Shown one piece after another: positions 26,181 through 32,932 of a DNA stretch of 59,297 nt. Position numbers and translations under genes: made by a program. The notes under the pieces were generated by a model, which had not been told where the DNA came from, ran no database searches, and saw only the letters and a list, made by a program, of their open reading frames with translations. How positions within the stretch are numbered: the first letter of the stretch is position 1; every line of letters begins with the position of its first letter. The stretch comes from Gammaproteobacteria bacterium (lineage in GTDB: Bacteria > Pseudomonadota > Gammaproteobacteria > Poriferisulfidales > Poriferisulfidaceae): NCBI GenBank assembly GCA_028819565.1, contig JAPPLD010000021.1, positions 1-59,297 on the forward strand. Direction: 5' to 3'.

Positions 26181-27525
26181 TGGCCTCTTCCTCCGGCATG
26201 AGCCGCGCCACCAGGCGCTCCAGTCGCGCCGCGCGCGAGCCTTTGACCAGCACCGCGTGCTGGGAACCGATTTGCGCCCGCAATTCGGCCGACAGTGCTT
26301 CCACGTCCGTGCAGGTCTGCCCACCCGAACCGAATGCGCGGGCGGCACGCACGGCATGCGGACCCAGCACGTAGAGCCGGGACACGCCGGCCTTGCGCGC
26401 GTAGTCGGCCACCTCCTCGTGGCACTCCGCGCTGTACAGGCCGAGTTCCTTCATCTCGCCCATGACCATCCAGGACTCCCTTCCCTGCGCCACCAGCACG
26501 TCGATGGCCGCATGGAAAGACCCGGGGTTGGCGTTGTAGCTGTCGTCGATCAATTGCGCGCCGCCGTAGCCCTCGACCAGCCGCAGCCGGCCTCCGACTT
26601 CAAGCTGGAAACCCGAGAGCGCCCGTGCCGCCCGCTGGAACGGCACGCCCAGCGCCACCGCCAACGCGACCGAGCAAGCCGCGTTGCGCGCGTTGTGTAT
26701 GCCAGCCAGCGTCCATTCGACCTCGACGTTCTCGCCGCTGTGGCGGAATTCAAGCCGCGACGGGGTACAGGGATATGCGTAGACGTCCGCCTGCACATTC
26801 AGGTCCGCCGCGAACGTCAGCACCTCGTGCGGAGCGGCGGCGGTCCGCCACTGGAACGCGAACCCGTCCTCGGCGTTGATCACCGCGACGCCCTCCGGCC
26901 CCAGGCCTTCGAAGATCTCGGCCTTCGCACGGGCCACGCCCTGCAGGCTGCCAAAACCTTCCAGGTGTGCCTGCGCGGCACAGGTGATGGTGGCCGCCTG
27001 CGGTCGCGCCAGCGCCGTCAGCTGCCGAATCTCGCCCGGATGGTTGGCGCCCATTTCGATTACCGCGTAGCGATGACTATCGTCCAGGCCCAGCAGGGTC
27101 AGCGGCACGCCGATGTGGTTGTTCAGGTTGCCCGACGACGCCAGCGTGCGGTCCTCGCTGCTCAAAATCGCGGCCGTCATCTCCTTGGTCGTGGTCTTGC
27201 CGTTACTGCCCGTGATGCCTGCCACCGCGACGCGATGTTCCGCGCGCCATTTCGCGGCGATCCGTTGCAGCGCCGTGAGCGTGTTCGGGACCACGATCTG
27301 CGGACAGTTCACGGCGAGCTCGCGCGCCGCCATCACCCCCACCGCGCGGTCTTCGCACTGTGCCGCGAAGTCGTGCCCGTCGAAATTCTCGCCCTTCAGA
27401 GCCACAAACAGTTCCCCGTCCTTCAGGGTCCGGCTGTCCGTGCCAACCCCCTTGACGGGCGCATCCGCGCCCTTGAGTTCGCCATCGACCCAAGCCGCCA
27501 ATTGCGCCAGTTGCATCGCCTTCAT
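26170..27525 (-). CDS. murF: UDP-MurNAc-tripeptide D-alanyl-D-alanine ligase
   Basis: 451 residues. Adds D-Ala-D-Ala, the Ddl product, to the tripeptide precursor. N-terminal [20 protein letters not shown] uridine-binding domain, P-loop [14 protein letters not shown] near 104, MGANHPGEI metal site near 158, and [18 protein letters not shown] near 320 identify MurF. ATGA overlap with murE, 11-base overlap with mraY. Confidence 0.97.
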
Positions 27526-28988
27526 GCGTCTGCCTCCAACGCCGCGTGCACGGCGGCATGGTCAGAAAACGGTCGCGTTTTCCCGGCTGCGATCTGCTCG
27601 GATTCGTGGCCCTTGCCGGCAATCAGCACCACCTCGCCGGGGGCCGCTTCCCGAACTGCCTGGCGGATCGCCTCCGCGCGGTCATGTTGCACCGCGACGG
27701 GCGCGGATTTCGGGATGCCCTTCAGGATGTCCTCGACGATTCGCTCGGGTGCCTCGCTGCGCGGGTTGTCGTCGGTCAGGGTCACCCGGACGGCCAGTCG
27801 CTGCGCCACCTCGCCCATGCGCGGGCGCTTGCCCCGGTCGCGGTCGCCGCCGCAACCGAACACGCAATGGATGTCCGCCCCGAAATGCTCGCGCAACGCG
27901 CCAAGCGCCGCTTCCAGCGCATCGGGCGTATGCGCGTAATCGATGAACACCGGGCCCGGCGCCTGGGCCACGCGCTCCAGCCGGCCCGGCACCGGCGACA
28001 GGCCTTCCATCGCCACCGCCACTTTCTCCATCGGCACGCCCCGCGCCTGCACGGCGGTCGCCGACAGCAGCAGGTTCATCACATTGAAACGACCGTACAG
28101 GCCCGGCACCTGCACGGCGTGAGTCTCGCCGCCTGCCGTCCACTCGAACGACAAGCCCTCCGCCGTCAGCCCGGTCACGCGCGCGGTCGACTCTGCTGAT
28201 GCGTCCATCGCGCAGGTATGAACCTGCGCCTTCGATTCCATCTGCTCGGCGAGTTCGTGCCCGAACGGGTCGTCGATATTGATGACGGCGCGTTCCGGCT
28301 TGAGTTCCGTGAACAGGCGCCGCTTGGCCGCGGCATACCGCTCCGGGGTCTGGTGGTAGTCGAGGTGATCGCGCCCCAGCGTGGTGAACACCGCCGTCTC
28401 GAAGTGCACCGCATCGCAGCGATGCTGGTCCAGGGCATGCGATGAAACCTCCAGTACGGCGACCGTGTCGCCGCGTTGCGCCATGTCGAAGAGTTCCTCC
28501 TGCAGCCGCACGGCATCCGGCGTGGTGTGGCCGGTCTCGTGTAGGGCACTCAACCGACCGGCGCCCAAGGTCCCGATAACGCCGCAGGACTGTTCCAGTG
28601 CGCCCAGGATCTGTGCAATCAAGTGGCTGGTGGAGGTCTTGCCGTCAGTGCCGGTGATGCCGATGACCGGTAATTGCGCCGAAGGGTCGCGGTAGAAGCG
28701 CCCAGCGATCGCGCTGAGCGAGCGGGACAGGTCCGGCACCGCCACGCACGGGACGTCCGTCCGGGGCTGCGCCTGGTTCGGGTCCGGTTCGTAAATCACC
28801 GCTGCCGCGCCCTTCCCGAGCGCCTCGGGTAGCCCCTCGAGGCCATGCCGCCGGGTTCCCCGGCAGGCTGCAAAAAGGTCCCCGGGACGGATCGCCGCGC
28901 TACGGCACTGAATGCCGGCGATCGCGCAGTCCCGGGGAACGGGGGCAAACCCTTCAAGTAAATCCGACAGTGATGCCTGCAGGCTCAT
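27522..28988 (-). CDS. murE: UDP-MurNAc-L-Ala-D-Glu--meso-diaminopimelate ligase
   Basis: 488 residues. Adds the third stem-peptide residue. P-loop GITGTDGKTSTSHL near 112, EVSSHALDQHR near 179, and the C-terminal DNPRSEAPERIVEDIL near 398. DNPR is the motif linked with meso-diaminopimelate rather than lysine specificity, as expected for a Gram-negative. ATGA overlaps with ftsI and murF. Confidence 0.97.
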   Translation of the reverse strand: MSLQASLSDLLEGFAPVPRDCAIAGIQCRSAAIRPGDLFAACRGTRRHGLEGLPEALGKGAAAVIYEPDPNQAQPRTDVPCVAVPDLSRSLSAIAGRFYRDPSAQLPVIGITGTDGKTSTSHLIAQILGALEQSCGVIGTLGAGRLSALHETGHTTPDAVRLQEELFDMAQRGDTVAVLEVSSHALDQHRCDAVHFETAVFTTLGRDHLDYHQTPERYAAAKRRLFTELKPERAVINIDDPFGHELAEQMESKAQVHTCAMDASAESTARVTGLTAEGLSFEWTAGGETHAVQVPGLYGRFNVMNLLLSATAVQARGVPMEKVAVAMEGLSPVPGRLERVAQAPGPVFIDYAHTPDALEAALGALREHFGADIHCVFGCGGDRDRGKRPRMGEVAQRLAVRVTLTDDNPRSEAPERIVEDILKGIPKSAPVAVQHDRAEAIRQAVREAAPGEVVLIAGKGHESEQIAAGKTRPFSDHAAVHAALEADA

Positions 28989-30948: not shown

Positions 30949-31868
30949 GGCAGCCTCCGGGCAGCACGCAGCCGGGCCGAGCGGGCGCGCGGATTGCGGT
31001 CGATTTCGTCGGGGGTCGGGCGAACCAGATCGAATACTTCCAGCACGGGCTCGAACGGGGGGGGCGGCCGATGCCGGCCGACCGGCGGCGGCTGGCTGGC
31101 CGCACGCAGGAAGCGCTTGACGATGCGGTCCTCCAGTGAATGGAAACTGATCACCGCGAGCCGCGCCTCGTCTGCCAGCAGCGCGACAACCTGTCCGAGC
31201 AGGGTTTCCAGCTGCTCGAGTTCGCGGTTGGTGAAGATGCGGATCGCCTGGAAGCTGCGGGTGGCCGGATGCAGCCGCGCCTCGGCCTTCGGCACGGTGC
31301 GCTCGATTAGCTGCGCCAACAGGCGGGTGTGGGTCAGGGGAGTGTGTTCACGGGTCTCGACGATGGCGCGGGCGATGCGCCGGGCGTAGCGCTCCTCGCC
31401 GAATTCAGACAAGACGCTTGAGATCTCGTCTTCCGCGGCCTGTGCAAGCCATTGCGCGGCAGTACGCCCGTCACCGCTCATGCGCATGTCGAGCGGACCG
31501 TCCTCGCGGAAGCTGAAGCCGCGTTCCGGAGAATCAAGTTGTGCCGAGGAGACGCCGAGGTCCAGCAATAACCCATCGACTTGGCGTTGCAGGCCAGCCT
31601 GGGCGAGGCGCTCGGGCAGGGCCGCGAATGCGTCCTGCACCACGGTCACTCTTGGATCGCCTCCGAACGTGCGGCGAGCGTGGGCGCAGGCTCCGGGGTC
31701 TCGGTCCACAAGCCATAGCCGGCCACCATGGCCGAGTTGCGAGAGGATTTCGCGTGCATGTCCGCCGCGGCCGTAAGTGGCGTCGACGTATAGCCCGTCG
31801 GAACGGATGGCGAGTCTGACCAGGGTTTCGCGCAGAAGGACCGGTTCATGCGTCTGCCCCGCCGCCAT
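30936..31868 (-). CDS. rsmH: 16S rRNA (cytosine-1402-N4) methyltransferase
   Basis: 310 residues from ATG 31868, chosen for its TGATG overlap with the mraZ stop. SAM-dependent; methylates N4 of C1402 of 16S rRNA, the same nucleotide whose ribose is methylated by RsmI, encoded just upstream of rnpB. Motifs HEPVLLRETL at the start, VDATYGRGGHAREIL near 29 (SAM loop), LLDLGVSSAQLD near 103, and ISFHSLEDRIVKRF near 244. Confidence 0.97.
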   Translation of the reverse strand: MAAGQTHEPVLLRETLVRLAIRSDGLYVDATYGRGGHAREILSQLGHGGRLWLVDRDPGACAHARRTFGGDPRVTVVQDAFAALPERLAQAGLQRQVDGLLLDLGVSSAQLDSPERGFSFREDGPLDMRMSGDGRTAAQWLAQAAEDEISSVLSEFGEERYARRIARAIVETREHTPLTHTRLLAQLIERTVPKAEARLHPATRSFQAIRIFTNRELEQLETLLGQVVALLADEARLAVISFHSLEDRIVKRFLRAASQPPPVGRHRPPPPFEPVLEVFDLVRPTPDEIDRNPRARSARLRAARRLPCAA

Positions 31869-32317
31869 CAGAGTTTGAGGTTGGTCACGGTCTGGGCGAG
31901 TTCGGGGTCGTTCAGGACCCGCGCCCAGTTCTCGTAGCGCTGCTCGTCGGTCTGCGCCGACCACAGCACCAGCTTGTGGCTCTGACCGATCAGTTCCGCG
32001 TCGCGCTCAAGCCCGGCGTAGCGGCGCAGGCTCGGCGCCAGCAGCAACCGACCCTGGCTGTCGAGCTGCCGTTCGTCGGCATGCCCGAGGATCATCTCCT
32101 GCAATACGCGATTGGCGGGGCTTCCACTCGGCAGGTCCTGCAGGCGCTGTTCCAGTTCCTCCCATACCGGCCACGGATAGATCGCGAGGCTGCGGTCGTG
32201 GTACATGGTCGCGACTACGCGGCCGTCGCATTGTTCGATGAGAGGTTCTCGAAAACGGCTGGGGACCGCGATGCGGCCCTTCTCGTCGACGGTCAACAAA
32301 CACGACCCTCTGAACAT
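31868..32317 (-). CDS. mraZ: Transcriptional regulator MraZ
   Basis: 149 residues, two tandem SpoVT/AbrB-like half domains, each with a DxxGR core: LTVDEKGRIAVPSRFR near 9 and LDSQGRLLLAPSLRRY near 81. MraZ forms rings that bind short direct repeats before its own gene and represses the dcw operon. Matching repeats lie 27-62 bases upstream (separate entry). First gene of the cluster; overlaps rsmH by one base. Confidence 0.96.
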   Translation of the reverse strand: MFRGSCLLTVDEKGRIAVPSRFREPLIEQCDGRVVATMYHDRSLAIYPWPVWEELEQRLQDLPSGSPANRVLQEMILGHADERQLDSQGRLLLAPSLRRYAGLERDAELIGQSHKLVLWSAQTDEQRYENWARVLNDPELAQTVTNLKL

Positions 32318-32344
32318 AGCCCCGGCCCCCGGTAAGTGGATGAT

Positions 32345-32379
32345 TCCACTTATTTCTAATTATTTCCATTTTATTCCAT
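32345..32379 (-). promoter_or_regulatory. MraZ operator: four 10-bp-spaced repeats
   Basis: On the minus strand TGGAA occurs at 32379-32375, 32369-32365 and 32349-32345, with TAGAA at 32359-32355, so four boxes repeat exactly every 10 bp. MraZ boxes in E. coli are TGGGN repeats with 5-bp spacers, so geometry and position match. The outermost box overlaps the -10 of the candidate promoter, which explains repression. Confidence 0.8.
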
Positions 32380-32396
32380 CCAAAAGATAAAGCAAC
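32369..32396 (-). promoter_or_regulatory. Candidate dcw (mraZ) promoter
   Basis: Minus strand: -35 TTGCTT (32396-32391), 16-bp spacer, -10 TAAAAT (32374-32369). The start would fall inside the MraZ boxes, about 45 bases before the mraZ ATG. Confidence 0.5.
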
Positions 32397-32548
32397 CGTA
32401 TCTGGAAGGAATTAAGGGTTATGAGACAAGCCTATGTAATATTTACATTTTATATAGATCCTCTCCGTCAATTTCCTGAAATATCAAGCGTGGTCCAGGC
32501 TGGATTCCAGACGGAAATTCCCACTTTCCACCCACCGGAGCAGCATGG

Positions 32549-32592: not shown

Positions 32593-32596
32593 GATG

Positions 32597-32932
32597 GGGA
32601 AGCAGGCCTGTAAGCCGGGTTCTGTCGAGGGCAGCCATTCATCTGGGCGGGACGTCGCCGCCCCGCTCTAGCGACCTACCCGGGAGCCATGCAGGACATC
32701 ATGATCGCTCCCCTATTGGGTCTTGCTCCGGATGGGGTTTACCCTGCCGCGTCTGTTGCCAGCCGCGCGGTGCGCTCTTACCGCACCTTTTCACCCTTAC
32801 CGGACGAGTCCGGCGGTATCTTTTCTGTGGCACTGGCCGTGGGCTTGCGCCCCCCAGGCGTTACCTGGCATCCCGTCCTGTGGAGCCCGGACTTTCCTCC
32901 GCACAAGGCAGCGGCTGCCCGGCCCGCTTCCT
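32597..32932 (-). ncRNA. rnpB: RNase P RNA (M1 RNA, type A)
   Basis: Catalytic RNA that matures tRNA 5' ends. The minus strand starts with GGAAGCGGGCC, which pairs with GGCCTGCTTCC at the 3' end (helix P1, one G-U pair). Just after the 5' arm comes the universal GAGGAAAGTCCGGGCTCC segment, then GCCAGGTAACGCCTGGG and CCAGTGCCACAGAAA. Near the 3' end lies ACAGAACCCGGCTTA. About 335 bases, a little short for type A, so one peripheral helix is probably reduced. Ends are taken from the P1 pairing. Placement beside rsmI is common in Gammaproteobacteria. Confidence 0.93.

Follow-up and report, generated by a model that had tools for sequence, protein, structure and literature searches.

A probable four-box MraZ operator lying across the predicted dcw promoter in a gammaproteobacterial lineage

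The window analysed here, a stretch of 59,297 nucleotides, carries upstream of mraZ an array of four direct repeats that is very probably the operator by which MraZ represses its own dcw promoter. Judged from the sequence, this site departs from the commoner arrangement in two respects: the array begins one repeat further upstream, and three of the four boxes lack the G that usually precedes the TGG core (position -1). The features under discussion are the following, in coordinates of the window:

27522-28988: murE, the open reading frame after the FtsI-type transpeptidase gene, named from its translation
31868-32317, minus strand: mraZ, 149 amino acids, two MraZ half-domains
32333-32340, minus strand: TCCACTTA, inverted copy of the TAAGTGGA of box 4 (arm 32345-32352, loop ATCA 32341-32344)
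32344-32348, minus strand: MraZ box 4, TGGAA, the sole box with a preceding G (AAGTGGAA) and thus with a GTG core
32354-32358, minus strand: MraZ box 3, TAGAA in the window genome (G000) and in G001, TGGAA in G002, G003 and G004
32364-32368, minus strand: MraZ box 2, TGGAA with A at -1; its T is also the last T of the predicted -10
32374-32378, minus strand: MraZ box 1, TGGAA preceded by A, within the -35/-10 spacer, invariant in G000-G004
32368-32373, minus strand: predicted -10, TAAAAT (TARAAT across G000-G004, TATAAT in G005)
32390-32395, minus strand: predicted weak -35, TTGCTT, its TTG invariant in the five-genome alignment
32595-32930, minus strand: RNase P RNA gene

Read along the minus strand from 32378 down to 32344, the array is TGGAATAAAA TGGAAATAAT TAGAAATAAG TGGAA, with box starts at 32378, 32368, 32358 and 32348 and, accordingly, a period of exactly 10 bp, as the first-pass annotation had claimed. 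The interval given there, 32345-32396, contains the array except for the end of box 4, which lies one base beyond at 32344, and the features are on the minus strand. Four copies of TRGAA at 10-bp spacing have one match in the window even with up to two mismatches allowed (none in 100 shuffles) and one match in the genome of 1,799,065 bases, where the reversed pattern, used as a control, has none. Four strict TGG boxes give no match in the whole-genome pattern search, because box 3 reads TAG; the TGG core is thus present in three of the four window boxes. To the eye, the intergenic stretch is AT-rich, and chance repeats in such DNA would be the simplest alternative, but dinucleotide shuffling of the 150 bp upstream of mraZ produced four T[G/A]G boxes at period 10 in none of 5000 shuffles and, with the period free between 8 and 12, in none of 2000. 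Together with the single occurrence in the genome, the conservation and the class-wide counterparts described below, these counts refute an origin by chance, to which we assign a negligible probability.

The mraZ product is matched twice by PF02381 above the curated cut-off, solved MraZ structures match it by sequence, and the protein is intact, with R/K3, K13, R15, R21 and R23 retained. The conserved basic loop residues K13 and R15 have a DNA-binding role; the basic residues and residue 12 presumably face the DNA, by comparison with AbrB-like proteins and with R15 of E. coli MraZ. Residue 12 is E or D in this lineage and mostly A, S, V or T in the class. A structure model computed from three sequences had a mean pLDDT of 39.7 and was set aside. 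After mraZ, Pfam matches identify a MraW-type methylase, FtsL and an FtsI-type transpeptidase, and murE follows; the RNase P RNA gene lies upstream of mraZ on the same strand. By their MraZ, the nearest named genomes are a Gammaproteobacteria MAG (97% identity) and 'Candidatus Porisulfidus sp. TsSOB' (88%).

Arrays of this type are widespread in the class. Of 143 relatives, which outside the genus and family f2 are mostly single representatives of their families, 126 have a MraZ match; of the 128 matches, a partial one (G081, contig C155) was left out and 127 loci were examined. A period-10 series of three or more strict TGG boxes is present in 94 of the 122 non-genus loci, as against 0.26 expected (shuffle mean), and three boxes at periods 7-9 or 11-13 in at most one of the 122. 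At least four strict boxes at period 10 occur in 26 of these loci, box number being mostly two to five. The element is thus almost certainly a standard MraZ operator, with a box number that is nothing out of the ordinary and only a modest change peculiar to the lineage. The earlier statement that E. coli has three boxes is correct (K-12 reads TGGGA, TGGGG and TGGGA), and four boxes are not unusual, given the 26 loci and the four-repeat site described for B. cenocepacia (PMC7761207). Letter frequencies draw on the 94 loci in which 150 bp hold three or more strict boxes and exclude the remaining 28; 11 near-duplicate genomes of family f2 were additionally excluded from the residue tests. The unit consensus from 315 boxes is AAAAGTGGGN. 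Base -1 is G in 86% of boxes, the usual letter although not a universal one, and position 4 is G in 53%, A in 25%, T in 15% and C in 7%. The proportion of G at position 4 climbs with upstream GC content (rho 0.41, p 4e-5); G at -1 shows no correlation with it (rho -0.01). One genome (G086) encodes two full-length MraZ homologues (L045 and L124), and upstream of L124 there is no box array.

Since the -35 is weak (TTGCTT, three of six consensus positions, 16 bp upstream of the predicted -10) and a consensus promoter scan listed no promoter at the TTGCTT/TAAAAT site, the promoter prediction in the window rests on conservation and position. To this extent the earlier placement of the boxes over the -10 of the dcw promoter stands: they do overlap TAAAAT, which itself belongs to a predicted promoter. 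Among the 94 non-genus loci, a simple promoter search places the last T of the -10 ten bases before box 1 in 37 and on box 1 itself in 15; the offset for E. coli is -9. In all five close genomes, G000-G004 (TAAAAT or TAGAAT), and in G005 (TATAAT) it falls on box 2, so that box 1 comes to lie between the -35 and the -10 in this lineage; the same placement is seen in three of the 94 other loci, one of them (G113) with a strong promoter score. Measured from the predicted -10, the array extends one repeat further upstream than in the commonest gammaproteobacterial layout, a lineage-specific feature. The -10, which commonly reads TATAGT, keeps a 10-bp phase with the boxes in 57 of the 94 loci, as if its end were itself a part-box.

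Two further elements lie upstream on the minus strand. At 32447-32471, AATTGACG is invariant in the five genomes and is followed by the conserved AT-rich TATATAAAAT; the stretch is a possible second promoter reading through the MraZ boxes, though conservation does not extend to a good -10 at 16-18 bp. At 32518-32527, approximately 145 bp upstream of box 1, stands a lone AAAGTGGGAA, which agrees in full with the box consensus of the class and may be due to chance; the GTGG within it is invariant in the five genomes.

The array is assigned to MraZ because it adjoins mraZ, is unique in window and genome, has orthologous counterparts in 94 of 122 loci and is conserved, because the MraZ is intact, and because a B. 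cenocepacia fragment holding a four-repeat site binds MraZ in EMSA (PMC7761207). Context, conservation and class-wide counterparts thereby support the four-box operator at the dcw promoter proposed in the first-pass annotation. Against the assignment speak the three boxes without the G found at -1 in most boxes of the class, and the weak -35 with no promoter in the consensus scan. If the site works as proposed, neighbouring boxes, spaced by one helical turn, would each present the same face of the DNA to a MraZ subunit. With the -35/-10 spacer, the -10 and the likely transcription start covered by the boxes, bound MraZ would keep RNA polymerase off; the step blocked is likely promoter binding by the polymerase, because spacer and -10 are both covered. 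Each of the three boxes without G at -1 is a weaker match to the class consensus, and the likeliest consequence would be a site of weak single boxes that depends on box 4 and on cooperativity among all four. For this locus we infer MraZ binding, repression, the start site and cooperativity, the first two by homology.

Alignment of the region bears out conservation in relatives: the array is kept in the close genomes, with 29 of 36 array columns invariant in comparison with 62 of 137 in the upstream non-array stretch. The reading of box 3 as TAGAA holds for the window genome and G001 and not for G002, G003 and G004, which have TGGAA there. Every one of the 20 boxes in the five genomes has A at position 4, and G at -1 is kept in box 4 alone, leaving 15 of 20 boxes with another base. 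These genomes are related, and their boxes are not independent events. Elsewhere, boxes with only A at position 4 are found in 2 of 94 loci, and at most one G at -1 in 3 of 94, G005 among them (-1 bases A, A, G, A). G005 is a divergent, fragmented genome that is labelled as the same genus, yet its MraZ is 48% identical to that of the window; its MurE (locus L008, contig C154) shares 61% identity with that of the window, with one in-frame TAA in the match. It shares both the missing -1 G and the upstream-shifted layout. The -1 change is common to six genomes and the position-4 change to five, and the former may have preceded the latter, as G005 suggests. The shifted base preference that had been read from TGGAA therefore survives only in part: TGGAA by itself does not amount to a clean shift, since the class as a whole is degenerate at position 4, where the letter tracks base composition, and 2 of the 94 other loci likewise have only A there. 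The stronger departure, which the first-pass annotation does not mention, is the loss of G at -1 from three of the four boxes.

Two explanations of these letters have to be weighed. The letter changes might reflect relaxed selection or base composition, an explanation that we regard as evenly balanced between right and wrong: four boxes would allow weaker ones to be tolerated, and box 2 would be drawn to the -10 consensus, with A for G at -10 position 5. The class-wide relation of position-4 G to GC agrees with it, as do the loss of the core G of box 3 in G000 and G001 and the double use of the -1 base of box 2 as base 5 of the predicted -10; however, G at -1 is independent of upstream GC, and relaxed selection does not predict the strong conservation of the array letters among the five genomes. 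Alternatively, and rather improbably, the specificity of MraZ has truly changed, so that ATGGAA is preferred over GTGGG by way of the loop D11-x12-K-G-R15, in which E or D replaces the usual small residue. The uniform A at position 4 and the prevalence of other bases than G at -1 in the five genomes would be expected from such a change, although through shared ancestry their 20 boxes amount to few independent events. E or D at residue 12 is rare in the class, and in set 1 the D/E12 loci outside the genus have a -1 G fraction of 0.66 (n=10) as compared with 0.90 (n=84) for the remainder (p=0.0014). Phylogenetic regression on residue 12 in this set gives p=0.0057 at the fitted lambda, which is 0 and amounts to no correction, and 0.13 under near-full Brownian correction. 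Several D/E12 loci, however, have G at -1 in every box, residue 12 ranks fifth in a scan of 282 residue groups, and residue 114 (acidic, n=7) outscored it in set 1. A new D/E12 set (13 mraZ loci read, nine with three boxes; matches G183 and G291 left out, L140 not being mraZ) has less -1 G than the set-1 background (one-sided p=0.006). Compared with A/S/T12 loci obtained in the same search scope (21 of 30 read, the rest being set 1 genomes, 16 with three boxes, further listed matches left out), the difference is 0.71 (n=9) to 0.84 (n=16) and not significant (p=0.19); regression on both sets together gives p=0.015. The link of -1 G loss to residue 12 is a lead, suggestive only.

Directly after box 4, TCCACTT completes the arrangement TAAGTGGA-ATCA-TCCACTTA. 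This inverted copy may act as a hairpin in the leader RNA, as an inverted box for MraZ, or in both ways, and a role of this kind as a second layer of control is put forward tentatively, as the less probable outcome. Stems measure 8 bp in G000, G001 and G003, 7 bp in G004 and 6 bp in G002, and all five genomes have TCCACTT unchanged, even G003, whose arms stand two bases further apart; outside the genus, a last-box stem of at least 5 bp is found in 10 of 100 loci as against 2.0 expected. On the other hand, pair counting detects no covariation in the stem among the five close genomes, leader folding energies are no better than those of shuffles (z -0.43 to -0.98), and the inverted copy is absent from G005. 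A compensatory change considered for the G004 hairpin was ruled out by the pair counts. The most far-reaching proposal is that a MraZ re-tuned to prefer A over G ahead of TGG evolved jointly with its operator, which would have shifted onto the promoter core, with an inverted box at its end, so that repression blocks polymerase binding itself; we consider it quite unlikely. If it were true, one of the most widespread regulators of bacteria would have switched its specificity in nature.

MraZ and its operator form a very widespread regulator-site pair, and few tests have addressed how MraZ recognises its box. A departure from the GTG core that occurs naturally, is conserved and stands beside its own MraZ offers a cheap test of the residues and bases that set specificity, and the survey adds two class-wide regularities, namely a box number of mostly two to five and a -10 often in helical register with the boxes. 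Among literature titles and the beginnings of abstracts, no MraZ boxes without the GTG core and no such layout were found; as most subscription papers lie outside this coverage, it is weak evidence of absence.

Among known systems, E. coli MraZ is a repressor of its own cluster (Eraso 2014, cited through PMC8475190 and PMC7761207), and the M. genitalium protein likewise represses the cluster (PMC8475190). PMC7761207 names B. subtilis, E. coli and mycoplasmas as organisms in which a GTG core is conserved. The Pmra promoter of E. coli K-12 resembles the window in its direct TGG boxes with 10-bp period, upstream of mraZ and near the -10, but it has three boxes, each with the preceding G, whereas the window has four, three of them without it; the last T of its -10 lies nine bases before box 1, whereas the window's predicted -10 ends on box 2. 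The Mollicutes site (AAAGTGKN3)3 (PMC5282649) likewise consists of direct repeats of a 10-nt unit and keeps the GTG core, in contrast to boxes 1 and 2 of the window, which read ATGGAA. Similar in box number is PmraBc of B. cenocepacia, with four repeats of a 10-bp unit (7 nt plus a 3-nt spacer); as described in PMC7761207, its site is built on a GTG motif and lies downstream of the -10, whereas in the window three boxes lack GTG and box 1 lies upstream of the predicted -10.
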